Positions 6,603-51,130 of a stretch of 51,130 bases of DNA are shown one piece after another. The DNA is from Pseudomonadota bacterium (GTDB lineage: Bacteria > Pseudomonadota > Gammaproteobacteria > Burkholderiales > JAKAFK01): contig JAKAFK010000019.1 of NCBI GenBank assembly GCA_021817985.1, positions 1-51,130 on the forward strand, written 5' to 3'. Position numbers and translations under genes: made by a program. A model generated the notes under the pieces. The model saw only the letters and a program-made list of their open reading frames with translations. It did not search any database and was not told the DNA's origin. Numbering within the stretch: position 1 is the first letter of the stretch; every line of letters begins with the position of its first letter.

Positions 6603-6608
6603 AGACAC

Positions 6609-7982
6609 TCAGAACGGCAGCGACAATCCCGCACGGGCGCCTAGCAGCGCCTTCCGGAAATCGCCCTGAATGCGTGCGAGGGCCTGTTCGGTATCGGCTT
6701 CGAAGCGCAGCACGACGACGGGTGTCGTATTCGACGGACGCATCAGTCCGAAGCCGTCGGCGTATTCGACGCGCAAGCCGTCGACGGTGATTATTTCCCG
6801 CGCATCGTCGAAGCGTGCCGTGCGCCGGAGCTCCTCGATCAGCGCATAGTTCTCGCCTTCCTTGAGCTTGATCTGCAGTTCGGGCGTGCATACCGCATCG
6901 GGCAGCCCGTTGAGTACCGCGTCGATGTCCTGGGCGTGGCTGAGGAGCTCGAGCAGGCGGGCGCCCGCATAGAGTCCGTCGTCGAAGCCATACCAGCGTT
7001 CCTTGAAGAAGACATGACCGCTCATTTCCCCGGCGAGCAAGGCACCGGTTTCCTTCATTTTGGCCTTGATGAGCGAGTGTCCGGTTTTCCACAGCAGCGG
7101 CCTGCCTCCGTGGCGGGTGATCCACGGCGCGAGGTTGCGGGTGGACTTGACGTCGTAGATGATGCTCGCACCGGGATTGCGTGACAGCAGGTCCTGGGCG
7201 AACAGCATGAGCTGGCGATCAGGAAATATGATTTTCCCCCCGCGTGTCACCACGCCCAGCCGGTCGCCATCGCCATCGAAGGCGAGGCCGATGTCCGCGT
7301 CCCCTTCGCGCAGACGGGCGATCAGGGCTTCGAGATTCTCGGGTTGGGAGGGATCCGGGTGGTGGTTGGGAAAATGCCCGTCCACCTCGCAGAAGAGTTC
7401 CGTGACCTCACAGCCGAGGCGCCGGTACAGCCGGGGCGCAACGGCGCCCGCGGCGCCGTTGCCGCAGTCGATCACCACATGGAGCTTGCGCGCGACCTTC
7501 ACGTCGCCGGCGATGCGCTCGATATACGCGTCGGTGATGTCCTGCCGCGTGAGTTCGCCTTGACCGTGCGTCAGGCGGCCGTCCTCGATGCGCGTGCGCA
7601 AGTCCTGGATGGCCTGGCCCGAGAGCGCTTCGCCCGAGAGCATCAGCTTGAGCCCATTGTAGTCGGGTGGGTTATGGCTTCCGGTCACCATGACGCCGCA
7701 GCCCGTCGCGAGGTGAAAGGTGGCGAAGTAGACCATGGGGGTGGCGACAAGGCCGATGTCGACGACGTCGACCCCGGCGGCCTGGATGCCGCGCGCCAGG
7801 GCGGCCGAGAGCTCGGGTCCGGACAGCCGGCCGTCGCGGCCGACCACAACGGTGCGCTGGTCGCGGGCACGGGCTTCCGACCCTAGCGCATGACCGATGG
7901 CTTCGACGATGGCCGGCGTCAGGGTATGGCCGACCACCCCGCGGATGTCGTAAGCCTTGAAAATCTCCTTGGGGACTTGCAT
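6609..7982 (-). CDS. algC: Phosphomannomutase/phosphoglucomutase (AlgC/ManB type)
   Basis: This enzyme interconverts hexose 6- and 1-phosphates, supplying mannose-1-P and glucose-1-P for LPS and exopolysaccharide. The 457-residue protein shows the four alpha-D-phosphohexomutase domains: N-terminal IFKAYDIRGVVG, the phosphoserine loop TGSHNPPDYNG, the metal loop DGDGDRLGV, the sugar loop GEMSGHVFF, and the phosphate loop RPSNTTPVVVLRFE near the C-terminus. Length matches Pseudomonas AlgC. It is transcribed alone or after the GGDEF gene 105 bp upstream. Whether mannose or glucose phosphate is preferred cannot be read from the sequence. Confidence 0.93.
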   Translation of the reverse strand: MQVPKEIFKAYDIRGVVGHTLTPAIVEAIGHALGSEARARDQRTVVVGRDGRLSGPELSAALARGIQAAGVDVVDIGLVATPMVYFATFHLATGCGVMVTGSHNPPDYNGLKLMLSGEALSGQAIQDLRTRIEDGRLTHGQGELTRQDITDAYIERIAGDVKVARKLHVVIDCGNGAAGAVAPRLYRRLGCEVTELFCEVDGHFPNHHPDPSQPENLEALIARLREGDADIGLAFDGDGDRLGVVTRGGKIIFPDRQLMLFAQDLLSRNPGASIIYDVKSTRNLAPWITRHGGRPLLWKTGHSLIKAKMKETGALLAGEMSGHVFFKERWYGFDDGLYAGARLLELLSHAQDIDAVLNGLPDAVCTPELQIKLKEGENYALIEELRRTARFDDAREIITVDGLRVEYADGFGLMRPSNTTPVVVLRFEADTEQALARIQGDFRKALLGARAGLSLPF

Positions 7983-8087
7983 AAGGATCCTCGTGTGGAT
8001 TGGACGAACATCCGGGTGGGAGGATCCCGGACTGTGCTCAGGCGAATTTTAGAGCACGGGGCCGCGCGATGCCACCCTCACCGGAGC

Positions 8088-10178
8088 CTAGGCCGCATAG
8101 ACGGCATACCGGTTCTTGCCGCTCTGTTTCGCCTGGTAGAGCGCCTCGTCGGCGTGCCGCAACAGCGTCGCGGCGTCCTTCCCGTGCGACGGGAACACAC
8201 TGATGCCCATGCTGGCGGACACCGAGAGCGCCTGGCCCGGAACGGTCATCGGCTCGCCCAGCAGCGCAAGGGCCTTCTTGGCCACCGCCTCCGTGTCGCC
8301 GTCGCTGGCGACTTCTGCCAGCACGATCACGAATTCGTCGCCGCCCAAGCGGGCCACGACGTCCATCGCGCGGACGCAACGCGTCAGCCGCCGGGCGGCT
8401 TCCTTGAGCACCTCATCCCCCGCTTCGTGGCCAAAGCGGTCATTGATCGCCTTGAATCCGTCAAGGTCGAGGTACATGACCGCCGCGCGTCCCTGATGGC
8501 GCGTGGCGGCCGCGAAGATCTTGGTCATTTCCTCGAGCAGCAGGCGGCGGTTGGGCAGTTCCGTCAGGGGATCGTGGTGCGCCTGCCGCACCAGGGATTC
8601 GGTTTCCTTCTGGCTCGAGATGTCCTCATGGATCGCGATGAAATGGGCGATCTCGCCGGACGGGTCGGCGACGGGCGTGATGGTCTGGCGGACGGTGTAG
8701 AGGCGGCCGCTCTTGTGGCGCTCGACCGTCTCGTTGGCCCATACCCGGCCCGCCAGGATGGTCCCCCACAGATCACGGTAGTAAGGCTCGCCGTGGTGTC
8801 CCGAGCGCAGAAAGCGAGGGTTTTGCCCGAGGATTTCGCTCAGCGCATAACCGCTTTGGCGCGCGAAGGCGTCGTTGGCCCATTCGACCCGACCGCTGCG
8901 GTCGGTGATGAACACCGCATTCGCGGCCGCGCCCAAGGCGCCGCGCAGCAGACGCAGCTGTTGCTGGTCGAGTGCGATTTCAAGGGCCACGCTCACGCGG
9001 GTGGCCACACTCCTCATGTTGTCGACCACGCGGATGTCATCGAACGCATGGTCCGCGGACGAATGAATACAGAAGGCGCCGAAGATCTGGCCCCGCAGGA
9101 TCAGCGGGATGCCCATGGCCGAAGCGATCCCGTATTCGGTTGCGGCTTGCTGCCAGGGCCCGAAGCTGGAGTCTAGCGCATGCAGCACCTGGACGTCACC
9201 CGTACGGATGGCGCTGCCCGCGACCCCATGCCCTTCCGGCGTGTCGTCCCAGCGCACCCCGATCCGGGTGAGGGCTTGGCAGAATTCCTCAGCCTCACCC
9301 GCGCTCGCCAGCATCTTGAAGGTGCCATCCGTTTCCCTCCTCCCGATCCAGATGCACCCATAGCCAAAGACCCGGGCAAGTTCGCTGCACACGAAGTTCA
9401 GCCCCTCAGAAAGCTCCACACCCTTGAGGATGCGCTGGTCGACGGCGTGCAGCAGATTGTCGAGCACGCGTCTTTCGGATTCCTGGGTGATGTCGCTGGC
9501 GTAAACGGCTATGCGGGAGACGGTGCCTTGGCTATCGAGGATGGGATAGTAGGTGATCGAAAAGCGGCGCCCCTCCCGGATCTCCTCGTAATGGACCGGA
9601 TGCTGGGTATGCACCGCGTCCCTCACCTGGTTGTACTGGTTGGCGGCGCAATCGGCGGGCAAGTCGTCATAGAAATTGGTGCCGACGAGCTGCGAGATGG
9701 TCCCGTGCAGCGTCTCGGCACAGGCCTGGTTGAGGGCCTCTATGGTGCCGTCCGGCTCGATCAGAAGCGCTGCCTCGGCCGTCGCGTTGAGGAGGGCCTG
9801 TGTGTGACGTTCGCTCTGCCGGGCGTTCAGGGCGACGGGCTCGTGACGGGAAAGATCGCGGGCAATGGCCAGAATCACCGACTTTCCCGGCGCGAACGCA
9901 ATCGAGTGCGCCGCCAGTTCCACCGGCACCCGCGTGCGGTCGCGTCTTAGCAACGCGCCTTCGAAGACGAGATGCCCGGCGCTGTTGAGCCGTTTCATCC
10001 GTCCCAGCAGCGAGCTGGCGAGCTCGGGCGGCGTGATGTCCTGCATGCGCATCTGCAGCAAATCTGCGCGCAGATGACCCAGCGTTTCGCAAAGGGCCCG
10101 ATTGACGGCCACCAGTCGGCCATCCCAGTCAAGGGCGAGGATGGCATCGTAGGCGTTATCGAACCAGGCGGAGAACAT
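8088..10178 (-). CDS. PAS-PAS-GAF-PAS-GGDEF diguanylate cyclase, soluble
   Basis: Likely a cytoplasmic sensor that makes c-di-GMP. Starting at the ATG at 10178 the protein has about 696 residues: PAS at about 2-112, PAS at 125-235, GAF at 240-405, PAS at 415-520, GGDEF at 535-690. The active-site GGDEF motif is intact at about 612-616 and is preceded by an RAMD (RxxD) inhibitory I-site at the usual five-residue spacing. No transmembrane segment and no EAL domain are seen. The ATG at 10178 has AAGG seven bases upstream; another ATG at 10214 or 10349 could extend the N-terminus. Signals sensed are unknown. Confidence 0.88.
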   Translation of the reverse strand: MFSAWFDNAYDAILALDWDGRLVAVNRALCETLGHLRADLLQMRMQDITPPELASSLLGRMKRLNSAGHLVFEGALLRRDRTRVPVELAAHSIAFAPGKSVILAIARDLSRHEPVALNARQSERHTQALLNATAEAALLIEPDGTIEALNQACAETLHGTISQLVGTNFYDDLPADCAANQYNQVRDAVHTQHPVHYEEIREGRRFSITYYPILDSQGTVSRIAVYASDITQESERRVLDNLLHAVDQRILKGVELSEGLNFVCSELARVFGYGCIWIGRRETDGTFKMLASAGEAEEFCQALTRIGVRWDDTPEGHGVAGSAIRTGDVQVLHALDSSFGPWQQAATEYGIASAMGIPLILRGQIFGAFCIHSSADHAFDDIRVVDNMRSVATRVSVALEIALDQQQLRLLRGALGAAANAVFITDRSGRVEWANDAFARQSGYALSEILGQNPRFLRSGHHGEPYYRDLWGTILAGRVWANETVERHKSGRLYTVRQTITPVADPSGEIAHFIAIHEDISSQKETESLVRQAHHDPLTELPNRRLLLEEMTKIFAAATRHQGRAAVMYLDLDGFKAINDRFGHEAGDEVLKEAARRLTRCVRAMDVVARLGGDEFVIVLAEVASDGDTEAVAKKALALLGEPMTVPGQALSVSASMGISVFPSHGKDAATLLRHADEALYQAKQSGKNRYAVYAA

Positions 10179-10417
10179 TGCCGGCCCTTGACGCCCGTGT
10201 TTTCGGCCACGCATAAGTTGTCGCCACGCTCTAAGGATGGAGATCCGCTCATCACGCGATCTGATCGGCTGTCGGTATTCGCACGCGACCTTGCGCGCAC
10301 CCTGCATCGCAGGACCGAATCCTTCGGCATGTGGGTGTGGCGGCGCCATGGAAAGATGCGACGTGGGCCGCCGTATCCGTGTTCCCTTGCATCAGGGGGG
10401 CGGGTGACCGAGACACA
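10179..10417. other. Intergenic region upstream of the GGDEF gene
   Basis: About 240 bp lie between the end of the interrupted small gene and the chosen start of the PAS-GGDEF gene. If the small gene is not accepted, the gene-free stretch is 10179-10706. It should hold the promoter of the GGDEF gene on the - strand. I see no convincing -35/-10 pair, terminator or repeat. Confidence 0.4.
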
Positions 10418-10705
10418 TTACGGGGGGCCTTTGGCAACCGCGGGGCGGCTCTTGCACTGGCGGAGCGTCCGGCGCCATTCTTCGCGGATGCGCCTGCGCA
10501 TCGCCGGGTCGGTGGGCGCCTTCCGCAAGGTGGCCTGATCCACGGCGAGGGACAAGGACTGTCAACCCTCAGGCACGGCGCACTCGACATGCAGCCTCCA
10601 GTCGGCCTCCCGGGGCTTAATTTCGAAGACGTAAGTCTCGAGCCGACGGCCCTCGAGAATGGCGGCTGCCGCTCCAGCGCGGTCCGCCCGCGCGAGCCCT
10701 CTCAC
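10418..10705 (-). pseudogene. Small gene interrupted by an in-frame TGA (about 95 codons), unknown function
   Basis: One base after the yheT stop, a GTG at 10705 opens a 47-codon frame ending in HVECAVPEG and TGA (10562-10564). The same frame then continues without another stop for 47 codons to TAA at 10418-10420, including AVDQATLRKAPTDP and MRRRIREEWRRTLRQC. Both halves read like real protein (a beta-rich segment, then a charged helix). Changing TGA to TGG would join them smoothly as PEGWQSLSLAVD. Most likely a conserved small gene with a nonsense mutation; alternatives are two tiny genes or chance. No family was recognised. Confidence 0.4.
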
Positions 10706-10706
10706 G

Positions 10707-11729
10707 TTATAGACGCAATCCGACCGCCTGACCAGCTTCGGGGGTGTCCCGGCCGGCCAGCGACCACGAAAAGTAGCGCAGGAGGTGCCGTGAGAGCCAG
10801 GACGCGCCGCCTGCGAAGCCGGCACCGAAGAAGCCGGCGTGGCCGCCGGTTCGCGGAAAGTGCAGGTGGATGCTGCGCGACACTTCGCAGGGTGCGGGAA
10901 GCGCCGCCTCGGGCAGAAACGGGTCGTTGCGGGCATTGAGGAGGAGGGTGGGGACGCGGACGTGGATGAGCCAGGGCTTCGCGCTGGAGGCCTGCCAGTA
11001 GGCGGCGGCACTCGGGAATCCGTGAATGGGGGCGGTGTAATGCTCGTCGAACTCGGCGAACGTGCGTGCGCGGGCGAGCGCCCCCGCGTCGAGCGCCAGC
11101 GCGTGCGTATGAATCTTGGTCAGCGCCTTATGGACGAGCGTTTTCAAGAAGTGGCGGGTATAGAGCAGGCGATTGACGCCATGGTCCAGCGCGCAGGCGG
11201 CGGCCGTCAAGTCAAAGGGCGTAGAGATGGCGGCCGCCGCGTCGAGCACGGGCAGGGCCGCTTCAGCCTGCGTCCCGAGCCACTTCAGCAGGGCGTTGGC
11301 ACCCAGAGAAACGCCTACCGCGAGGAGCGGCGCGTTCGGATCCTGGCGTTCCTTGAGGCGACGCAGGATCCAGTCGACTTCTTGCGCATCGCCGGAATGG
11401 TAGGCGCGCGGCAAACGGTTGGGTTCCTCGCTGCAGCCGCGGAAATGGACGACGACGCCACGCCAGCCGATGGCGCCCACGGCCCGCATGAGGTCGCGGG
11501 CATAGGGGGAACGCGAACTGCCTTCCAGGCCGTGCAGCAAGACAATGAGGGGTTGCGCGCGCGGTCCGTCGATCCAGTCCAGGTCGATGAAGTCGCCGTC
11601 GGCGCTCTCCCAACGGCTGCGTCGATACGACAGCGTGAAAGTCCGCGGGAAGACGTATGGAAACAGGGTCTGCAGATGTCCGCCCGGCAGCCACCATGGC
11701 GCGCGATAGGCATCGGGAGCGAAAGGCAC
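10707..11729 (-). CDS. YheT-family alpha/beta hydrolase
   Basis: A predicted carboxylesterase-like hydrolase of the AB-hydrolase YheT family; the natural substrate is unknown. The catalytic triad is visible: nucleophile serine in VGVSLGAN, aspartate in LLNARNDPFLP, and histidine in RTGGHAGFF. The oxyanion region is LLHGLEGSSRSPYARDL, and the family N-terminal motif is WWLPGGHLQTLFPY. The GTG at 11729 is chosen because AAGGGCGCC lies just before it and it gives a family-like 340 residues; the frame is open further upstream only through the preceding gene. It follows the SnoaL-like gene by 8 bp, so the two are probably co-transcribed. Confidence 0.88.
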   Translation of the reverse strand: MPFAPDAYRAPWWLPGGHLQTLFPYVFPRTFTLSYRRSRWESADGDFIDLDWIDGPRAQPLIVLLHGLEGSSRSPYARDLMRAVGAIGWRGVVVHFRGCSEEPNRLPRAYHSGDAQEVDWILRRLKERQDPNAPLLAVGVSLGANALLKWLGTQAEAALPVLDAAAAISTPFDLTAAACALDHGVNRLLYTRHFLKTLVHKALTKIHTHALALDAGALARARTFAEFDEHYTAPIHGFPSAAAYWQASSAKPWLIHVRVPTLLLNARNDPFLPEAALPAPCEVSRSIHLHFPRTGGHAGFFGAGFAGGASWLSRHLLRYFSWSLAGRDTPEAGQAVGLRL

Positions 11730-11737
11730 GGCGCCCT

Positions 11738-12172
11738 TCAATGGTAGAACGGGGCGGCAGGTCCTGCGAGCATGCGCGCGTTCGCAGGCGAGGGGGAGGC
11801 GTGATGGAGAATCATGCGCCAGCCGCGGGGCGTCAGGCGGTAGGCATTGGTGGCGATCACCGGGGGACGGGCGCGGCTCGAGCGCGCCGTCAGGATGTGT
11901 TCGTGCACGAGGCGGACCGACAGGAGTCCCTCCTCGAAGGCTTGCACCGGCTGGATCTCGAAGCGCAATGCGGAGTCTTCCCCGAAGAGGCGGCTCCACC
12001 CCTCAAGGACTGCCGTGCGACCCTGCAGCCGGGCGCCCATCGGATGCACGCACACGATGTCGTCGTCATCGGCCCAGATCATCATCATCGCTTCCAGATC
12101 CTGCGCCGCAAAGGCGCGATAGAATGCCTTCTCGGCATCCTGCGCGCTGGCCAAGCTTACTACGGGGTCCAT
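11738..12172 (-). CDS. SnoaL-like / DUF4440 family protein
   Basis: A predicted 144-residue NTF2-fold protein of the ketosteroid-isomerase/SnoaL superfamily. The characteristic N-terminal helix is followed by AFYRAFAAQDLEAMMMIWAD, then VHPMGARLQGRTAVLEGW, and strands around VRLVHEHILTA and VIATNAYRLTPRGWRMILHH. Members are often of unknown activity, so no reaction is assigned. The ATG at 12172 is preferred; the frame extends to a TTG at 12235 with no good ribosome binding site. It is the first gene of a pair with the YheT-type hydrolase and is divergent from hemN. Confidence 0.8.
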   Translation of the reverse strand: MDPVVSLASAQDAEKAFYRAFAAQDLEAMMMIWADDDDIVCVHPMGARLQGRTAVLEGWSRLFGEDSALRFEIQPVQAFEEGLLSVRLVHEHILTARSSRARPPVIATNAYRLTPRGWRMILHHASPSPANARMLAGPAAPFYH

Positions 12173-42996: not shown

Positions 42997-45006
42997 GTGA
43001 GCGGCAGACCAAGATCATGCGGGTTTGCGGTCACCCTCGGGCTTCTGGCCGCAGGTCAGATGCACGGGCGGCCCGCCTGCGCGGACACCGAGATCCACGT
43101 GAGCGCCGCACAGGTCGCGAATGCGGCAGTGGTTGCCCATGATGTCCGGGGCGATCTGGCCGGGCCGATCGGTGCGCGGCGCCTGAAGGTGCGCATCGGC
43201 TCGCTGGCGCTGTCCCGCCATCGCTACCGGAATGTCGCGCTCCAATGCAGCGCGTTGCACCTGGCGCCTCAGGGTGTGAGCTGCGCCCGTGGACAGATCT
43301 TTTTCGTCCGCGCCATGCCCGTGCGCTTCCGTTACCGCAGCGTGGCGCGGCGGCTCCGGGTCGTGATCGCGCCTGCGCGGGACGAATCGTGGGCATTGGA
43401 CGCGCGGTTCCTGGCCGCAGGGTGGCAAGCGACGGTCGATGTGCGCAATGGGCGGCTCGATCGCCTCAGTCCCTGGCTGGCATCGCGCCTGCCGCACCCA
43501 ACCGGAGGGCGCGTGACCGGAAGCCTCTCGGCCCGCGGGGGCGTGGCAGGTCCGGTACGCCTTGGGGCCGACCTGCGGCTCGAGCAGGCGGCCTTCAGCG
43601 ACGCATCGGGCCTGCATGCAGGCGACAAGCTGAGCGGATCGCTTCAGGCGTCGGCAATCCGCCAGGTGGGCCGATGGGCGTGGACGGCGCAGGTGGACTA
43701 CCGGCAGGGCGAGGTGTTCTGGCAACCGTTCTACCTCGCCAAAGGCGGCACTCGGCTCGAGGCACAAGGGACCTGGGACCCTCAGACAGTCGCGGTGGCC
43801 GACGGCCGCTTGGCGATGGCCGGGGTGGGGTCCGCGCACTTCTCGGGACGTTGGAACAGGCTGAAAGGCAAGCTCCAGGCCTTGGACGTGCAGGCGTCCA
43901 ACGTCCAGCTTGCCCAAGCCTATCCGGTCGTGCAGCCGCTTTATGCGGGGACCGCGCTGGGCAACCTGGTGCTTGCCGGTGAGGCTGACGTGCACTGGCT
44001 ATACCAGGACGGACAGGCCCAGCAGTTCGACCTTGCGCTGCGCGGCGCATCGCTTGCCGACAAAAGCCATGCGTTTGCGTTTCAAGGCGTCACGGCCCAA
44101 ATCCCGTGGAGCCGTGTGGCGCCCACGGCAGCGAGCATCCGGATCAAGCAGGGGCGGGTTTTCAATCTGCCGCTGGGCGGCATGGACGTGCCGCTGGCCC
44201 TGAAAGGCACGAGTGTTCGGGCACCGCATCTGAGCATCCCTATCCTGAACGGGCAACTTGCCGTCAACAATCTGTATGCCGAACGCACACAAGGCGGTTG
44301 GCAGGGGGGCTTCAGCGGCACCTTGAGTCCCTTGTCGATGGCGGACTTGACGCGGGCCCTGAAGCTTCCCGTGATGCATGGCGATCTGTCCGGGGTCATT
44401 CCGGAAGTGGCTTACCGGCAAGGCCGGCTTGCGCTCAACGGCGCCTTGCTGGTGCGCGTTTTCGACGGCTCGATTGCGGTCACGCATCTCGCGCTGCAGG
44501 ATCCCTTGGGGCCTGCGCCGCAACTGCAAGCCGACCTCTACATGCACCGGCTGGATTTGGGCCTCCTGACCCGCGCCTTCTCCTTCGGGCATATCCAGGG
44601 GCGCATCGATGCAACGGTCGACCACCTGCACCTCGCGGATTGGCGGCCGGTGGCCTTCGATGCGCGCATCGCCTCGAGCCCCGGCAATTATGTCCGGGAA
44701 ATCAGCCAGCGCGCGGTGCAGAACATCACCGAACTCGGCGGCGCGAGTCCCTCCGCCGTCCTGGAGCGCGGGTTCTTGGGGTTCTTCAAGCAGTTTCGCT
44801 ACCGGCGGATCGGCCTGAGCTGCGTTTTGCGCAACGGCATTTGCTATATGGATGGCATCAAGGAGGTGCCCAATGGCTATGTCATCGTCGAAGGCGGCGG
44901 GATTCCCGCCATAACGGTAATCGGCTACAATCATTTCGTGGATTGGGATGTGCTGATTGACCGCCTGAAACGGATCGCGCATTCCCAGGGGCCGATCGTC
45001 CGTTGA
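42997..45006 (+). CDS. ydbH: YdbH-family AsmA-like intermembrane lipid transport protein
   Basis: A 669-residue periplasmic-facing, beta-rich protein. The C-terminal half matches the YdbH domain (older Pfam name dicarboxylate transport): GQLAVNNLYAERTQGGW, RLALNGALLVRVFDGSI, PQLQADLYMHRLDL, HIQGRIDATVDHLHL, and the end VPNGYVIVEGGGIPAITVIG. In E. coli YdbH acts with the lipoprotein YnbE and with YdbL in phospholipid transport to the outer membrane. The N-terminus (FAVTLGLLAAG) is a short hydrophobic signal or anchor, and the first 300 residues are less conserved. Start GTG at 42997. A small lipoprotein gene and ydbL follow, as in E. coli. Confidence 0.88.
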   Translation: MSGRPRSCGFAVTLGLLAAGQMHGRPACADTEIHVSAAQVANAAVVAHDVRGDLAGPIGARRLKVRIGSLALSRHRYRNVALQCSALHLAPQGVSCARGQIFFVRAMPVRFRYRSVARRLRVVIAPARDESWALDARFLAAGWQATVDVRNGRLDRLSPWLASRLPHPTGGRVTGSLSARGGVAGPVRLGADLRLEQAAFSDASGLHAGDKLSGSLQASAIRQVGRWAWTAQVDYRQGEVFWQPFYLAKGGTRLEAQGTWDPQTVAVADGRLAMAGVGSAHFSGRWNRLKGKLQALDVQASNVQLAQAYPVVQPLYAGTALGNLVLAGEADVHWLYQDGQAQQFDLALRGASLADKSHAFAFQGVTAQIPWSRVAPTAASIRIKQGRVFNLPLGGMDVPLALKGTSVRAPHLSIPILNGQLAVNNLYAERTQGGWQGGFSGTLSPLSMADLTRALKLPVMHGDLSGVIPEVAYRQGRLALNGALLVRVFDGSIAVTHLALQDPLGPAPQLQADLYMHRLDLGLLTRAFSFGHIQGRIDATVDHLHLADWRPVAFDARIASSPGNYVREISQRAVQNITELGGASPSAVLERGFLGFFKQFRYRRIGLSCVLRNGICYMDGIKEVPNGYVIVEGGGIPAITVIGYNHFVDWDVLIDRLKRIAHSQGPIVR

Positions 45007-45059
45007 TGGAGGCTTGGCGGCTCCCGGGAGGTGAGTCGACCGAGCGGAGGGTTCTCTTG

Positions 45060-45272
45060 ATGAGTAGAGTGCATGGACGTTGGATCCCCCTGGTGGGGAT
45101 TCTGGGGACATTGTCCGCCTGCGTGACCGTCAATATTTACTTTCCCGCATCGGCGGCTCAGAAGGCGGCGGACAAGATCATCGAGCAGATCTATCAGAGC
45201 AAGCACCCCCCGGCCGGGACGAAGGAGACGCCTCCGGCGCCGGCGACCTCGCCCACCTCACCGGGCCATTAA
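45060..45272 (+). CDS. Small lipoprotein in the YnbE position
   Basis: A 70-residue protein with a signal peptide and lipobox (LVGILGTLSAC, Cys17), so probably a lipoprotein. After the lipobox come VTVNIYFPASAAQKAADKII and a Pro/Ala-rich tail. The position between ydbH and ydbL equals that of E. coli ynbE, but the sequence lacks the NMNVKIEHEI pattern I would expect of YnbE and instead has the VNIYFPA motif seen in some DUF1318 lipoproteins. The start is set by GGAGG nine bases before the ATG at 45060; the longer frame from 45003 overlaps ydbH. Function is inferred from context only. Confidence 0.75.
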   Translation: MSRVHGRWIPLVGILGTLSACVTVNIYFPASAAQKAADKIIEQIYQSKHPPAGTKETPPAPATSPTSPGH

Positions 45273-45282
45273 GGAGAGATCC

Positions 45283-45723
45283 ATGAAAGCGCGAGTCGAT
45301 TACGCACGGGGACTCTTGTGGATGCTCGTGCCCCTGTTTCTGGCCTTGGCGCCGGTGGCGCGGGCGCAGCAACCCAATTTTCACGTCAACACGCCCGGGA
45401 TTGATGCGATACGGGACCAATTGCGCGCGGACTTCCACCAGCTGAAACCGTATTTCGAGAACGGGACCGTGGGACCGACGGCCGAGGGCTTGTTGGCCAT
45501 ACGCGACCTGAGCGCCGTTCCGCTGCCCGATCGGGCGCGCGTCACGGCGCTGGTGGCCGACGACAACGCTCACCGGCGTGAGCTTTATCAGGGCATCGCG
45601 GTGGCCAATGGCCATCCGGAGTGGGCGAGCGATATTCAGGCGACGTTCGCCCAACGCTGGATCGCCCTCGAGCGCCCGGGATGGTGGTACCGCAACGCGA
45701 GCGGCACCTGGGTTCAGAAGTGA
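45283..45723 (+). CDS. ydbL: YdbL-family (DUF1318) periplasmic protein
   Basis: A 146-residue protein with a clear signal peptide (LWMLVPLFLALAPVARA, cleavage near residue 28). The mature part matches DUF1318/YdbL: IRDQLRADFHQLKPYF, GLLAIRDLSAVPLPDRARV, LVADDNAHRRELYQGIAVAN, ending in [13 protein letters not shown]. In E. coli YdbL modulates the YdbH-YnbE bridge. GGAGAG precedes the ATG by six bases, and the gene lies 10 bp after the lipoprotein gene. The stop overlaps the GTG start of the exonuclease gene by four bases. Confidence 0.9.
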   Translation: MKARVDYARGLLWMLVPLFLALAPVARAQQPNFHVNTPGIDAIRDQLRADFHQLKPYFENGTVGPTAEGLLAIRDLSAVPLPDRARVTALVADDNAHRRELYQGIAVANGHPEWASDIQATFAQRWIALERPGWWYRNASGTWVQK

Positions 45724-46493
45724 CGCCACTGCTGGTCTTCGACATCGAGACGGTTCCCGATGCGGCAGGGCTCGCCAAACTCCACGGCATCGCACCCGCA
45801 GTGCCGGCTGAGCAGGTGGTCGAGATGGCGCTGCAGCGGCGCCGCCAAGCGAGCGGGACGGATTTTCTGCCCCTGCATGTGCACAAGGTGGTGGCCATCT
45901 CCTGTGCGTTGCGGGACCGCGACGCCTTCAGGGTCTGGTCCTTGGGGCATCTGGAGGACCCCGAGCCGGAGCTGATCCGCCGTTTCTTCGAAGGCATCGA
46001 CAAGTATTCGCCCCAGATCGTGTCCTGGAACGGGGGCGGGTTCGACTTGCCGGTCCTGCATTATCGCGCCCTGATCCATGGCATCCAGGCGCCCAGGTAT
46101 TGGGACATGGGCGACGGAGACCGGGACTTCAAGTGGAACAATTACATCAGCCGCTACCATACCCGTCATCTTGATCTGATGGATTTGCTGGCCCTTTATC
46201 AGGGGCGGGCGGCCGTCGGATTGGACGAGCTGGCGAAGCTGATCGGCTTTCCCGGCAAGCTCGGGATGGACGGGTCGCGCGTGTGGGAGTCCTTTCAGCG
46301 GGGAGAGCTGCCGGCCATCCGAAATTACTGCGAAACGGATGTGGTCAACACCTATCTCGTCTATCTGCGGTTCCAGCACATGCGCGGCGCGTTGTCATCG
46401 GAGCAGTATGGGCGCGAATGCGCGCTCGTGAGGGAAGTCCTGGCGCAGTCGTCCGAACCTCATTGGCGCGAGTTCCTGGCGGCGTGGGCATGA
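45720..46493 (+). CDS. Predicted PolB-like 3'-5' exonuclease
   Basis: A 257-residue DnaQ/RNase-H-like nuclease of the PolB-associated exonuclease family. The acidic active-site residues appear in FDIETVPD near the N-terminus, [19 protein letters not shown] in the middle, and [16 protein letters not shown] near the C-terminus (exo I, II and III motifs). The GTG at 45720 overlaps the ydbL stop (GTGA), and the stop overlaps the rlmD start (ATGA). The frame extends upstream only within ydbL. Biological role unknown; the coupling to rlmD suggests a nucleic-acid processing function. Confidence 0.88.
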
Positions 46494-47824
46494 GCCCGCG
46501 CCCGGGCTTCGCGCAGGCCGATTTGCTTCCGATGCCCAGCGTGATCGTCGAGTCCCTGGACCAGGAAGGGCGCGGCGTGGCCCACTGCGACGGCAAGGTC
46601 GTGTTCATTGAGGATGCGTTGCCGGGAGAGGAGGTCGAATACCGCGCCTACAAGAAGAAGGCGTCTTACGAACTGGCCGAGCTCGCCCGCATCCGACGGG
46701 CCAGCGCCTTCCGGGTCGAGCCGCGATGCCCGCACTTTGGCGTGTGCGGCGGATGCAGCCTGCAGCATCTGGAGCCGACGGCGCAGGTCGCCGTCAAGCA
46801 GCGGGTCCTGGAAGATGCCCTGCGTCATATCGGCAAAGTATCACCCGGCCTCATCTTGCGCCCGATTCATGGCCTGCCGTGGCATTACCGCTATCGTGCG
46901 AGGCTTTCGGTGCGCTATGTCGCCAAGAAAGGCGGGGTCCTGGTCGGGTTTCATGAACGGCGCAGCAGCTTCATCGCCGATATGGGCATGTGTGCGATCT
47001 TGCCGCCTCGCATCTCCGCCTTGATCAGCCCGTTGCGCAGCCTTGTCGGCTCGCTGTCGCTGCGCGAGCGCATTCCCCAGATCGAGGTGGCCATCGGGGA
47101 GTCGGTCGTCGTCCTCGTGTTGCGTATCCTGGCGCCGTTGGCTGCGGAGGATGAACCCCTCCTCAAGGCGTTTGCGGATGAGCATGGCATCCAGTGGTGG
47201 CTGCAGCCCAAAGGGCCCGCGTCGGCCCACGCCTACTATCCTGAGCGGATGCCTGAACTGTCTTACTCGCTGCCGGAATTCGGATTGGTCATGCCTTTTC
47301 GCCCGACCGACTTCACGCAGGTCAATGCGGCGGTGAACCGCGTACTCGTTGCGCGCGCGATCGCGCTGCTGGACCCTCGGCCGCAGGAACGGATCGGGGA
47401 CTTCTTTTGCGGCTTAGGCAACTTCACGTTGCCCATTGCCCGCAAAGGCGCGGAGGCGCTCGGGGTGGAGGGCAGCCGCGAGTTGGTGGCCAGGGCCGAA
47501 GCCAATGCGCGGCGCAACGGGGTCGTCAACGCTTCCTTCGTGGAAATGAACCTGTTCGAGATGACCGAGCAGAGTCTCGCGGGTCTGGGATATTTCGACA
47601 AAATGCTGATCGATCCGCCGCGCGACGGCGCTGTCGAACTCGTCAAGGCCCTGCCGCCGAGTGCGCCGTCAAGGATCATCTATGTCTCGTGCAATCCGGC
47701 CACGCTCGCTCGCGATGCGGCCATCCTGGTGCACTCCAAGGGCTACCGGCTGATGGCGGCCGGCGTGGCCAACATGTTCCCGCACACGACGCACGTCGAG
47801 TCGCTCGCCTGGTTCGAGCGGTAA
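46490..47824 (+). CDS. rlmD: 23S rRNA (uracil-5-)-methyltransferase RlmD
   Basis: RlmD methylates U1939 of 23S rRNA using S-adenosylmethionine. The 444-residue protein has an N-terminal TRAM domain ([20 protein letters not shown]), a 4Fe-4S cysteine motif ([10 protein letters not shown] plus Cys in MGMCAIL), and a C-terminal methyltransferase domain with [25 protein letters not shown], and the catalytic cysteine in [12 protein letters not shown]. The ATG at 46490 overlaps the exonuclease stop by four bases. It is followed by a hairpin serving mainly the convergent yccA gene. Confidence 0.95.
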
Positions 47825-47860
47825 GGGCGCATCGCCCGTGGACGAGGCAGGGGAAAACAA

Positions 47861-47886
47861 AAGCGCCGGCGGTGATGCCGGCGCTT
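47861..47886 (-). terminator. Rho-independent terminator of yccA
   Basis: AAGCGCCGGC (47861-47870) pairs with GCCGGCGCTT (47877-47886): a perfect 10-bp stem with a 6-nt loop between two convergent genes. Read on the - strand it is followed by TTTTGTTTTCCC, a good T-rich tract, so it terminates yccA. On the + strand it lacks a T-run and would be weaker for rlmD. Confidence 0.85.
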
Positions 47887-47914
47887 GAGGGATTGCGGAT
47901 CGGGCGAGCGCGAA

Positions 47915-48607
47915 TCAGCGGCGCCGCTGTCCGGACAGCATCATCAGGATGTTCAACAGATTGATGAAGATGTTGTAGATGTCCAGGTAAAGCCCGAGCG
48001 TGGCCATCACGTAATTGGTCTCGCCGCCATGCACGATCTGACTCACGTCATAAAGGATGTACAAGGAGAAGAGGAGGACCGCCACCGCCGAAATCGTCAA
48101 CGTCGCGACGGGCACATGGAAGAAGATGTTGACCAGGGAGGCAAGAACGAGCAGGATCAGCCCGACGAACAGGAACTTGCCCAGAAACCCGAAGTTCTTC
48201 CGGGTGACCGTTGCGATGCCCGCGAGGGTCAGGAAGATGGCGCCCGTGCCGCCTGCGGACAGGCCCACCAGTTCGCCGCCATTTTGCAGCTGCAGCGCGA
48301 CTTGCAGGATCGGTCCGAGAAAGAACCCTGCCACGAACGTAAACCCGAGCAGGAGGGCAACGCCGAGCCCGCTGTTGCGGTTCGCCTGGACGCCGAAGAT
48401 CAAGCCCATCATGGCGGCAAACATTCCCAGTGTAAAGAGCAGGGGGTGCGACGCCATGAAGGAGAAGTTGGTGTTGGTGCCGATGAGTGCCCCGATCACG
48501 GTGGGGATCATGGTAAGGCCCAGCATCGTGTATGTATTGCGCAGCACCCGGTCCGTGCCCAGCGCATACTGCGCGGACGGTGAGACCATGCGGATGTCAG
48601 GTTGCAT
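47915..48607 (-). CDS. yccA: Bax inhibitor-1/YccA family membrane protein
   Basis: A 230-residue polytopic inner-membrane protein of the TMBIM/YccA family, which in E. coli binds and modulates the FtsH protease. Seven hydrophobic helices are visible from YTMLGLTMIPTVIGALIG to TLGLYLDIYNIFINLLNIL, and the conserved acidic pore residues occur in LYILYDVSQIVHGG and the last helix. The start is fixed by AAGGAG before the ATG at 48607. HtpX elsewhere in the window shares the FtsH quality-control link. Confidence 0.94.
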   Translation of the reverse strand: MQPDIRMVSPSAQYALGTDRVLRNTYTMLGLTMIPTVIGALIGTNTNFSFMASHPLLFTLGMFAAMMGLIFGVQANRNSGLGVALLLGFTFVAGFFLGPILQVALQLQNGGELVGLSAGGTGAIFLTLAGIATVTRKNFGFLGKFLFVGLILLVLASLVNIFFHVPVATLTISAVAVLLFSLYILYDVSQIVHGGETNYVMATLGLYLDIYNIFINLLNILMMLSGQRRR

Positions 48608-48806
48608 TGAAAGAGCTCCTTTGTTGTGTTGCCAACGTGCGTAAGCAAGAACTGACGCTAAGACTACCGAAGTGGCATGAAAGTTTCAACTTGCCTATCC
48701 CGAGTCTAGTCGATGCAAGCCGCTTTAGGCTATCATGGACGAGGTTTCGACTCGGTGACCAACGAGTCTCCAGGGCGTAGGCGCAAGGCCCAAGTTCCCG
48801 GAAGCC

Positions 48807-48852
48807 GGAGAAGTGGCAGAGCGGTCGAATGCGGCGGTCTTGAAAACCGTTG
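48807..48852 (+). pseudogene. 5' half of a tRNA-Ser(UGA) gene
   Basis: GGAGAAG (acceptor 5' arm), TGGCAGAGCGGTCGAATGC (D-arm region) and a complete anticodon arm GCGGTCTTGAAAACCG with anticodon TGA are present. After the anticodon stem the sequence changes abruptly; the variable arm, T arm and acceptor 3' strand are missing. The break at the end of the symmetrical anticodon stem is the pattern left by tRNA-targeting integrases. A TATCAT at 48731-48736 may be its old promoter -10. It cannot make a functional tRNA as it stands. Confidence 0.8.
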
Positions 48853-48944
48853 TGTCATCGTGTAACATATTGATTATATTATATTTGGTAATATTTTTCA
48901 TTTCCGCAACCCCCGGGGCTGCGTGCGGATCATGCGGATCATTT
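48853..48944. other. AT-rich spacer between the tRNA-Ser fragment and the intact tRNA-Ser
   Basis: About 92 bp, of which 48861-48900 is strikingly AT-rich (TATTGATTATATTATATTTG and more) against a GC-rich background, followed by a GC-rich CCCCCGGGGC. The AT-rich part could hold the promoter of the intact tRNA-Ser or be foreign junction DNA. No gene is visible. Confidence 0.5.
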
Positions 48945-49034
48945 GGAAGCGTGGCAGAGTGGTTTAATGCTCGGGTCTTGAAAACCCGCGCGGGGGCAAC
49001 CCCGCCGTGAGTTCGAATCTCACCGCTTCCGCCA
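48945..49034 (+). tRNA. tRNA-Ser (anticodon UGA)
   Basis: A complete 90-nt type II tRNA. GGAAGCG (48945-48951) pairs with CGCTTCC (49024-49030), followed by discriminator G and an encoded CCA. The anticodon arm CGGGT-CTTGAAA-ACCCG has TGA at 48979-48981. The long variable arm GCGGGGGCAACCCCGC is serine-type, and the T arm contains GTTCGAATC. It differs at many positions from the truncated copy 92 bp upstream, so it is not that gene restored. Confidence 0.95.
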
Positions 49035-49484
49035 ACCGCTACTTCGTCGGCTTGACGACCTCGCGTCTCGCGGCGTCTCGCTGAAGTGCTCCGTGGGATC
49101 CAGAACGTTCCAATCCCAGTCCTTCCCGTGCTCAAGGCCCGATACTGCCGCGAAGCGGCATAGAATCTCAAAGTTCTCAGGTGTCTCGAGGTTTAGATTC
49201 GCGTACCTGACGTTGGTCAGGCGGTAATAGTTGGAGGGGGCATCGGCAAGCTCTGGAGTCTGGCGAAATAGCCTAGCGGGTGAACTCGCGAAATAGTTTC
49301 TTGCCGGGCCGTTCGGCCCACGTTGGCGTCCGACAGCCACGAACCCCGTCGTTTCCCAGCGTCGATCGGAGAGCAAAGCCGGGTTGACCTCCGCGAAACG
49401 CTCGACCAACCAGACATACGCGTCGCGGGCACTGTCGAATTGGTGTTCCTTACCACGGAAGTGCGGGTCCTTCGTCGATTTCAT
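49020..49484 (-). CDS. Unknown protein whose frame runs into tRNA-Ser
   Basis: A 154-residue frame with protein-like sequence: AYVWLVERFAEVNPALLSD, WETTGFVAVGRQRG, NYYRLTNVRYANLNLETPEN and FEILCRFAAVSGLEHGKDWDW. I do not recognise the family. The ATG overlaps the transposase stop (GTATGA). The last 20 or so residues are Arg/Ser-rich, and the stop lies inside the 3' end of the tRNA-Ser gene on the opposite strand, so the natural C-terminus was probably lost at a junction. Base composition is less GC-rich than the core genes. Probably a remnant of an accessory gene. Confidence 0.55.
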   Translation of the reverse strand: MKSTKDPHFRGKEHQFDSARDAYVWLVERFAEVNPALLSDRRWETTGFVAVGRQRGPNGPARNYFASSPARLFRQTPELADAPSNYYRLTNVRYANLNLETPENFEILCRFAAVSGLEHGKDWDWNVLDPTEHFSETPRDARSSSRRSSGWRKR

Positions 49485-50341
49485 ACGGTAGGTTTGTCGT
49501 TTTCCAAGGCCTTTTTGCTACGGCAACCCGGCCTGCGTAATGGGTAGAAGGGCTCGGCCGTGTCGGGCAGGTTGAGCTGCCGTATTTTGAGCTTGAAGTA
49601 CTCGGTGTCCAATAGTCCCCTGGCCCGCTTGCGGATCAGACCGATGCCGACGTTGCCCGCCTCAATGACGGCGCTGGTGATCGGGTAGGCCGCATAGTTG
49701 CAGATGCCCTCGGCGTGACTGCGTATTGTCTTGCTGAACGATTTGAGCGACGCGATCTTGCTGGCCTCCGCCAGGCCGCACCAGTCCTCAATACGCACAT
49801 GCATGGCCTCGACGGACGGTGGATCGCGCCAGACTGCCTGCAGTTGCTCCTTGAGCGTGTATACGATGTTGATCTTCTCGTTGGCCGCGAGCAGCTCTTG
49901 CAGACGGCTCTCGCCATCGTCGCCCAACTGGTTGCGGTTCTTCAGCAGCAGGTAGGTCGAACCCTTGATTCTCGCCTGCCCTTCCTCGTCCGCCTTGCGC
50001 ATCTCGGAACGCCGCACCTGCTTGATGACCTTGCTATACATCTGCATCACGTGAAAGCGGTCGAACACGATTGCAGCGTTCGGCAGCCACTGCCTGACTG
50101 CCGACTGATAGGCCAGCCCCATATCCATCGCGACCGCCTTAATGCCCTGGGCGCACTCCTCGCTCAACCCCTGCAGGAACTCACCGAAGACCTCGGCCGT
50201 GCGCCCCTCCTTGATCCACAGCAGCTTACCGCTTTCCATGTCGTAGACCAGCGTGAGATAGTCGTGCCCCTTGGCCCGCGCCACCTCGTCGACGCCAATC
50301 AGCTCCAGCCCCTCCAGAAACTCCGGCCGCCGCGCTTCAAT
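49481..50341 (-). pseudogene. ISL3-family transposase lacking its N-terminus
   Basis: The open frame encodes the catalytic part of an ISL3-type DDE transposase: IGVDEVARAKGHDYLTLVYD with the first Asp, DMGLAYQSAVRQWLPNA and FDRFHVMQMYSKVI with the second, and YFKLKIRQLN near the end. About 285 residues remain against roughly 400 in intact members; the N-terminal zinc/HTH DNA-binding part is missing. In frame, a TAA at 50342-50344 and GC-rich unrelated DNA replace it. The part beginning at the GTG at 50284 could still be translated, but it would lack DNA binding. No terminal inverted repeats could be assigned. Confidence 0.8.
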
Positions 50342-50347
50342 TTAAAG

Positions 50348-50395
50348 GCCGGCCCCCGTCTCACGCTGCGCGTGAGCCACCCCCAGGGGGCCGGC
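50348..50395. repeat. Nested GC-rich hairpin at the broken transposase edge
   Basis: GCCGGCCCCC (50348-50357) pairs perfectly with GGGGGCCGGC (50386-50395). Inside lies a second perfect stem, CTCACGC (50360-50366) with GCGTGAG (50370-50376), closed by TGC. It begins three bases after the TAA that ends the transposase frame and is flanked by TTTAAA. It looks like a palindromic extragenic or mobile-element end structure; no family was recognised. Confidence 0.6.
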
Positions 50396-50582
50396 GGGGC
50401 TTCGCCCCCCACCCCCAAAGCGGCCCTTTGCTCGCCCTACGGGCTGCGTCAGGCGCGCTTTTGTGGCGGCTCCCCCCGCCCCTGCGCTGGCGCTTCGGGG
50501 GACTCACCTGGACGGTTCGCCCCCGCCTTCGGCGGCCCCCCAACCAACTGCCGCGCATCCGCGAGAGGTGCTTCTGGAATGT
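50396..50582. other. GC-rich hairpin-prone spacer before the autotransporter end
   Basis: A continuation of the structured DNA: GGGGC-TTC-GCCCC at 50396-50408 and several further short GC palindromes up to about 50545. Frames here (for example 65 residues on the - strand) are Arg/Gly/Pro-rich and look like translations of palindromes. It lies just after the autotransporter stop on that strand and could include its terminator, though no T-run follows. Confidence 0.4.
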
Positions 50583-51130
50583 TCAGAACACCGCGTGATA
50601 GCTGATCGTGCCACCATAACTCGGGTCGCCGCCCTGGGTGGCGGCATTGACCCCGACGGTCACCAAATTCTTGTCCGTCAGATGATGGTCGAGGTCGGCC
50701 ATCACCCGCACCCAGTTTTGACGTACACTCTGACCCGGCACGGCAAAGCCGCCCAGACCGATGATCTGGCCGCCCACCCCGGAGGTATTGCTTTCCATGC
50801 AATGAACCATTTCCGTGTTCAACACCAACTCGGTCGTGCCGGTGAGGGCGGTTTTGGTTTCAGCGCCTACACGCACATTGTTGTCCGTGCTTGTGTCGCC
50901 ATTGTAGGAGACGGGGAAGCCGCCTCCGACTTCGGTGTAGGCCCCAACATGGGCTTGCTGCCAAGTGTAGGCGGCATAAGGTGAGAGCGACAGCTTGCCG
51001 AGAGTGGCAAGATTCAGCAAGTCCACGCGCAGCCGCACTGCCGTGCTGGTCGTGGTGGTGTAGCCTTTGGATGTGCTGATGTCGTTGCCGTTCTGATAGT
51101 TGCGGCTGACGTTGGTGCCGAAGTTTCCCC
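50583..51130 (-). CDS. Autotransporter outer-membrane beta-barrel, C-terminal part
   Basis: The frame is open to the window edge and encodes the last 181 or so residues of an autotransporter-type barrel. Alternating strands are visible: LGKLSLSPYAAYTWQQAHVG, NNVRVGAETKTAL, QNWVRVMADLDHHLTDKNLV and GTISYHAVF, ending in Phe as required for BAM-dependent insertion. The passenger domain and signal peptide lie outside the window. It adjoins the mobile remnants, so it may be part of the accessory region. Confidence 0.75.
   Translation of the reverse strand, partial: GNFGTNVSRNYQNGNDISTSKGYTTTTSTAVRLRVDLLNLATLGKLSLSPYAAYTWQQAHVGAYTEVGGGFPVSYNGDTSTDNNVRVGAETKTALTGTTELVLNTEMVHCMESNTSGVGGQIIGLGGFAVPGQSVRQNWVRVMADLDHHLTDKNLVTVGVNAATQGGDPSYGGTISYHAVF

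Follow-up and report, generated by a model that had tools for sequence, protein, structure and literature searches.

A phage-derived tRNA-Ser(UGA) beside the split host gene whose function it very probably took over

The window (the whole 51,130-nt stretch of DNA analysed here) holds half of a native tRNA-Ser(UGA) gene and, shortly behind it, a complete tRNA-Ser(UGA) gene of different sequence. We consider it very probable that a phage carrying its own tRNA-Ser(UGA) split the native gene, and that the phage then decayed while its tRNA was kept as the reader of UCA codons. The two gene halves, their common core, the attachment arms, the foreign tRNA, an integrase remnant, and intact relatives with the same layout are all present in the sequence; from them we infer integrase action, expression of the phage tRNA, and the essentiality of that tRNA. 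The arrangement is more than chance: it is bounded by identity with a congener, the missing 3′ half lies elsewhere in the same genome, and the layout recurs in six other integrated elements.

In the course of events that we propose, the attP of a temperate phage with a tyrosine integrase would have recombined with the anticodon-loop region of the host tRNA-Ser(UGA) gene. Because the common core is not long enough for the gene to be rebuilt, integration would have split it, leaving the 5′ half at 48807-48854 and moving the 3′ half to the far edge of the element, now on contig C103. With the phage would have come a whole tRNA-Ser(UGA) of its own, opposite a convergent integrase gene, and this tRNA would have made good the lost reading of UCA (tRNA-dependent lysogeny). 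Nearly all phage genes would later have been lost or replaced by insertion sequences; the tRNA would have been retained because the cell needs its UCA-reading function. The features at the junction are as follows.

47915-48607, minus strand: Bax1-I family gene, conserved host flank (Pfam PF01027, E 7.9e-48)
48807-48854, plus strand: native host tRNA-Ser(UGA) 5′ half including the core, aligned to the intact gene of the congener G001 up to 48854
48839-48854, plus strand: common core CTTGAAAACCGTTGTG, 16 bp, found in the window, G001, and C103, whose sequences diverge to its left and right
48855-48944, plus strand: phage attachment arm, identified by arm repeats against a random control and by similar arms in related phages
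48864-48878, plus strand: direct repeat AACATATTGATTATA in the window arm
48901-48911, plus strand: arm repeat TTTCCGCAACC, inverted relative to the C103 arm
48945-49034, plus strand: complete phage-derived tRNA-Ser(UGA) (ARAGORN; Rfam RF00005, 58 bits)
49039-49062, minus strand: remnant of a phage integrase C terminus, EVVKPTK-stop, convergent with the tRNA and identical to the end of the integrase of viral locus L099

The initial annotation had described the fragment at 48807-48854, the intact tRNA-Ser(UGA) at 48945-49034, and two copies of GGTCTTGAAAACC (48836-48848 and 48974-48986), and all of these are there. ARAGORN and Rfam call only the second copy at this locus; no tRNA is called on the 5′ half by itself, and RNA folding of the 5′ half and of the attachment arm gave no signal. 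Over 3.86 kb (45001-48854), the window is 91% identical in DNA to G001, and the identity ends at 48854. Beyond the matching point, G001 continues into the 3′ half of its own tRNA-Ser(UGA), present at this place as a single copy and adjoined, as in the window, by the Bax1-I family gene. Comparison with a relative, as the initial annotation had proposed, thus found an intact native gene in the corresponding position, and for this reason we take 48807-48854 to be the stump of that gene. The stump had been thought to end exactly at the 3′ end of the anticodon stem (48848), with recombination at the stem end. Neither point holds: the alignment to G001 carries the native match six bases further, to 48854, and the shared block starts at the first base of the loop, which places recombination in the anticodon loop and core instead. 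That the two tRNAs are different genes was correctly recognized, the intact copy of the window and the native gene of G001 being identical in 65 of 90 aligned columns. Among 369 genomes of the class, the tandem pattern of a half and a whole tRNA-Ser(UGA) was found only in the window's own genome.

The native 3′ half of the G001 gene has one match in the window's genome, on contig C103 (11973-12028, 96% identical). A second copy of the core joined to the missing native 3′ half, which the initial annotation had suggested seeking beyond the window, is therefore present elsewhere in the genome. The core CTTGAAAACCGTTGTG starts at the first base of the anticodon loop, and the window and C103 are alike in it and unlike on both sides, as two products of one recombination must be. 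When the host flanks of the window and C103 are joined, they read as a tRNA-Ser(UGA) whose acceptor stem has a single A-C mismatch; that of the native G001 gene has none. The C103 half alone is not called as a tRNA, neither junction of the window element reads as one, and the classical rebuilding of the target tRNA gene at one junction is not found in this element.

The orphan 3′ half is itself followed by other mobile DNA.

C103 (locus L053), 5286-11905: second integrative element, directly behind the orphan tRNA-Ser 3′ half

This second element contains a tyrosine integrase together with type I restriction-modification genes (Pfam HSDR, N6_Mtase, and Methylase_S). We considered its integrase as the maker of the split and rejected it, since in 5 of 11 loci the relatives of this integrase have an intact tRNA-Ser or tRNA-Asp gene as neighbor. 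Because of these intact neighbors, and because the type I restriction-modification genes come next, we assign the integrase to a second element. In a related locus, 83% identical in the part compared, the tRNA ends in CCTCTCC, as does the C103 half, and the native half ends in CTTCTCC, which suggests that the last bases of the C103 half probably come from the second element. The A-C mismatch between the C103 half and the native 5′ half is attributed to the same source.

Taking the attachment arms of the window and C103 as the 90 bases on the inner side of the core, we find an 11-bp inverted repeat common to both, GGTTGCGGAAA / TTTCCGCAACC, whose copies lie 44 and 46 bp from the core, and also a 10-bp direct repeat. 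In a control of 2000 random pairs of 90-mers drawn from four contigs of the window's genome, the inverted value was reached in 13 pairs, the direct value in 24, and both in 1. The arm motif has three occurrences across those four contigs; the window accounts for one, and C103 for two, both of the latter lying at most ~120 bp from the core.

The whole tRNA of the window matches the tRNA-Ser(UGA) of an IMG/VR phage contig (L250) in 88 of 90 columns and that of phage locus L126 in 86 of 90. It begins 99 bp past the anticodon loop and has the same direction as the host tRNA. Taken alone, the EVVKPTK-stop remnant is short and a weak match (E 0.85 in a small search). It sits where related phages carry their integrase gene, and a single DNA alignment to a phage contig, L125 (76%, E 1e-27), connects arm and tRNA and reaches as far as about 49064. 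Nothing else of the phage integrase was found in 49001-51130. With its attachment arm, phage tRNA, and last integrase codons, the window element is, on this sequence evidence, a relic of a phage family that carries a whole tRNA. Of the earlier reading, entry into the native tRNA-Ser gene through its anticodon region and replacement of its function by a foreign tRNA-Ser are borne out. That tRNA had been proposed as either supplied by the element or acquired later; on our reading it came with the phage. An inserted element does begin here, as the proposed island boundary implied; the label of island gives way to that of a decayed prophage of a recognizable family.

Viral contigs were scanned for the arm next to anticodon-loop sequence. 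Of the resulting seven plus two matches, three are attachment sites (L099, L100, and L101) and six are not. L099 contains arm, core, arm, complete tRNA-Ser(UGA), and a convergent tyrosine integrase. L100 (record G371) has arm, core, and a tRNA-Ser 3′ half, and the adjoining frames look, by eye, like a broken integrase of the family. The L099 integrase matched 30 viral loci, itself included; two more, largely overlapping scans added loci, one of them keeping the best 80 of 129 relatives. The exact tandem pattern gave 0 matches in viral contigs because the relatives differ in the core. The arrangement of the window is nonetheless found in four distinct viral records (L118, with a flank identical to that of L119; L120; L125; and G372), which have a host tRNA-Ser 5′ half, core, arm with TTTCCGCAAC sites, whole tRNA-Ser(UGA), and convergent integrase. 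Two bacterial genomes from the window's order (G615 and G559) share it, which brings the number of distinct integrated cases other than the window to six. A whole tRNA-Ser(UGA) next to the core is likewise carried by ten distinct attP forms that are not integrated: L099, L121, L122, L126, L145 (=L146), L159, L160, L250 (=L251), L252, and L269, with L270-L273 looking the same as L269. L288 was assigned by eye as an integrated junction rather than an attP form. The distance from loop to tRNA is 86-108 bp across the forms measured, a set without L145 and L146. The tyrosine integrase of the relatives matches Pfam PF00589 and PHROGs integrase; only its C-terminal codons are kept in the window.

Both junctions can be read in two of these cases. 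The two ends of record G372 are the two junctions, the far end being the host 3′ half behind a phage arm, and joining its host halves gives a tRNA-Ser(UGA) whose acceptor stem is paired throughout. G615 has its junctions on contig 6, at 255384 and 229224, with 26 kb between them; here too, the halves read as a tRNA-Ser(UGA) once joined. In both records, the two junctions diverge in the bases that follow CTTGAAA, from which we infer that strand exchange took place within this seven-base anticodon loop. The G559 contig ends before the far junction.

We sorted 119 loci by layout, many of them duplicate records from the L099 integrase scan. Thirteen have a whole tRNA, 21 reconstruct the host gene (six of these with <250 bp of upstream DNA), 37 are cut at most 15 bp from the integrase, and in 48 no tRNA-Ser site was found. 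At E 1e-40, the integrase family is present in 1 of 369 genomes of the class, the window's own, and in 25 of 399 genomes of the order, again including its own; among the order-genome loci retrieved, the whole-tRNA layout is found in G615 and G559. These counts speak against a wide spread of the family. Among plasmids and named phages, no record covers 80% of the whole-junction query. The window's genome also carries two integrases of the same family, on C34 (L156) and C63 (L157), 49% and 44% identical to that of L126, and the one on C63 is convergent with a tRNA-Cys(GCA). A related integrase on a circular plasmid record of Paraburkholderia sp. SOS3 (L155) adjoins what appears by eye to be the 3′ half of a tRNA with a CAT anticodon; this half begins near the anticodon loop, the same sublocation in another tRNA. 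L249 has an integrase nearly identical to that of L250, behind which lie several tRNA-like genes together with a different tRNA-Ser(UGA). Burkholderia phage BcepMigl carries a tRNA-Ser.

Integrases of this family also occur in phages that rebuild their target. Those of Pseudomonas phages PA8, VB_EV13, and PseuP_222 adjoin the 3′ half alone, and AUS531phi has a rebuilt tRNA gene; in such reconstructing phages, identity to the tRNA starts either at the anticodon-loop base or a few bases ahead of it. In a tree of 42 integrase rows, 14 with a whole tRNA and 18 that reconstruct fall on the two sides of one branch (support 96/91), and one change of strategy suffices in 99% of 200 bootstrap trees. 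When the strategy labels were shuffled, the mean was 10.7-10.8 changes, and 0 of 500 shuffles was as low as one. An earlier tree of 33 rows, which omits the partial L142, agrees (8 versus 8, support 94/96), and a strict count over 29 rows, without L137 and L141 (short upstream) and L203 (cut flank), still gives one change. The 42-row tree omits 11 rows as partial, near-duplicate, or long-branched (L127, L128, L129, L131, L132, L134, L142, L143, L153, L155, and L157); duplicate, partial, or broken integrases are likewise not in the tree (for example, L138, L145, L146, L150, L190, L193, L195, L251, and L269-L273). The outgroup lies on the reconstructing side, so the whole-tRNA strategy looks derived and probably arose once, from tRNA-reconstructing ancestors. 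The direction of this change is less sure than the grouping, owing to long branches near the root.

Past the integrase remnant, one frame is without a Pfam or PHROGs match, and two others can be named.

49481-50284, minus strand: ISL3-type transposase frame inside the element (Pfam PF01610, E 2.3e-65)
50583-51128, minus strand: autotransporter beta-domain frame that runs off the contig end (Pfam PF03797)

PHROGs searches with seven frames of the window and C103 yielded transposases, a broken integrase, and regulators, and no structural phage gene. The window is the whole of contig C181, so that nothing lies past 51130. The autotransporter frame has a near-identical copy on C162 (98.2% over 563 bp) that ends at the same base, and the duplicated gene breaks four contigs, C181 and C162 at one base and C103 and C42 at another. 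This gene is HAF-repeat-like (the repeat was named by reading), and its middle is missing from the searched assembly. C181 and C103 are unjoined in the assembly and both end inside the duplicated gene, which makes two pairings of contig ends possible, with C162 or C42 as partners; the pairing of C181 to C103 has the orientation that the attachment sites require. If this pairing is right, the element measures ~10.5 kb, a sum that includes a guessed gap of ~0.3 kb. A broken integrase of another type lies at about 14703-15968 of C103 (L053), inside the presumed window element.

The phage tRNA appears to be the one that the cell now uses for UCA, the codon read by a UGA anticodon. There are 42 tRNA matches in the genome, 40 of which were given an anticodon, and the tRNA-Ser genes among these have the anticodons UGA (in the window only), GCU, GGA, and CGA. 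The two matches without an anticodon (C36:17-89 and C94:55289-55362), at 73-74 nt, would be too short for tRNA-Ser. The listing of tRNA-Ser(UGA) genes called for by the initial annotation thus found none besides the window copy among the 42 matches; with the genome estimated to be 96.3% complete, an unassembled native-like copy is possible. UCA is in use, making up 9 of 2750 codons in seven evident genes of the window. No terminator-like sites were found between 48600 and 49120, so transcription of the phage tRNA by read-through from the host tRNA promoter is plausible. A promoter scan gave three promoter-like sites, against 0.3 expected in shuffles, two of them on the tRNA strand. One uses TTGAAA of the anticodon loop and was not seen to be kept in related phages.

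Three other explanations were weighed. Entry of the same phage type could have left a larger and less decayed element whose middle lies on other contigs, or two elements in place of one. This we regard as improbable. The two possible pairings of contig ends within the duplicated autotransporter gene leave room for it, as does the broken integrase of another type on C103 within the presumed element; against it, the pairing of C181 to C103 has the orientation required by the attachment sites, and the integrase next to the tRNA is reduced to its last codons. Far less probable is entry of a non-phage genomic island or conjugative element that carried or later gained a tRNA-Ser. The window element does now hold insertion-sequence genes and, if one frame is read correctly, part of a conjugation gene. 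Yet arm, tRNA, and integrase end form one continuous alignment to a contig of the phage family, and viral contigs show the same layout, on which grounds we discarded this origin.

The fragment might also be the decayed copy of a tandem tRNA-Ser(UGA) pair, given that two stretches resembling tRNA-Ser(UGA) are near neighbors with the same direction. Plain tandem duplication was rejected, however, because the intact copy and the native gene match in only 65 of 90 columns and the pattern is unique to this genome among the 369 of the class. G001 moreover has one copy at this place, the 3′ half survives elsewhere with the same core, and G372 and G615 have double junctions, all of which makes such a pair extremely improbable. 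Returning to a phage that split the gene and left its own tRNA behind, we think it likely that the exchange is permanent: the UCA tRNA would have been swapped for the phage gene, which would now be an essential host gene, and since the prophage would have decayed beyond excision, the swap could not be undone.

The mechanism is of a known kind. tRNA-dependent lysogeny was demonstrated in mycobacteriophages (Guerrero-Bustamante and Hatfull 2024, PMC10865867), and in its defining features at the sequence level the window case belongs to it: the attB lies in a host tRNA gene that is split, the core is short, no tRNA is rebuilt, and the phage tRNA is of the same isotype. Lysogens may require the phage tRNA for survival; an indirect sign is its being the sole tRNA-Ser(UGA) among the tRNAs given an anticodon. 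In the available part of PMC10865867, as here, a tyrosine integrase uses an attB in a host tRNA gene, the core (8-17 bp there, 16 bp here) is too short to rebuild the tRNA, and close relatives carry the 3′ half and rebuild the gene instead. Relative to what that part describes, the present case differs in its hosts and integrases, in the tRNA concerned (Ser-UGA, as against Lys, Ile2, and Leu), in where the phage tRNA sits (86-108 bp beyond the anticodon loop and oriented like the host tRNA), and in being a relic devoid of phage genes, known from its sequence. Beyond Actinobacteria, the discussion in PMC10865867 points to Lactobacillus prophage Lj965 as a likely case. PMC11476347, in the part available, describes two S. 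meliloti prophages whose integration in mid-gene likewise inactivates a tRNA, with a substitute of the same kind carried by the prophage; unlike the window relic, these are intact prophages in two strains of an alphaproteobacterial host, and the tRNA is tRNA-Leu(UAG). The term tRNA-dependent lysogeny appears in the reference lists alone in the accessible text of PMC13028781, PMC11236537, and PMC11783711. Islander elements, as presented in the available part of PMC4383910, also split tRNA genes by means of tyrosine integrases and normally restore the gene, which the window element does not.

Among phages with related integrases (58-59% to L126), PA8, VB_EV13, and AUS531phi have tRNA identity starting at the same first anticodon-loop base as here. 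Their attP has the whole 3′ half and rebuilds the gene, so that, unlike here, a separate tRNA-Ser is unneeded. A 2018 paper reportedly describes anticodon-loop integration in Acidithiobacillus. In our literature search, we met no description of either this phage lineage or a relic reduced to its tRNA; what appears to be new is the lineage, the one-time switch away from reconstruction, and the fossil exchange of a tRNA.

The available part of PMC10865867 left open the frequency of tRNA-dependent lysogeny beyond actinobacteriophages and its evolutionary relation to the reconstructing way. Here, one integrase family has both the whole-tRNA and the reconstructing strategies, and the window may show the end of the process, with the phage gone and its tRNA left. 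If this is true, some tRNA genes of bacteria descend from phages, and half a tRNA next to a complete one would be a searchable scar. Proteobacterial phages that swap tRNAs in their normal life cycle would then provide a steady route for the lateral replacement of essential tRNA genes.
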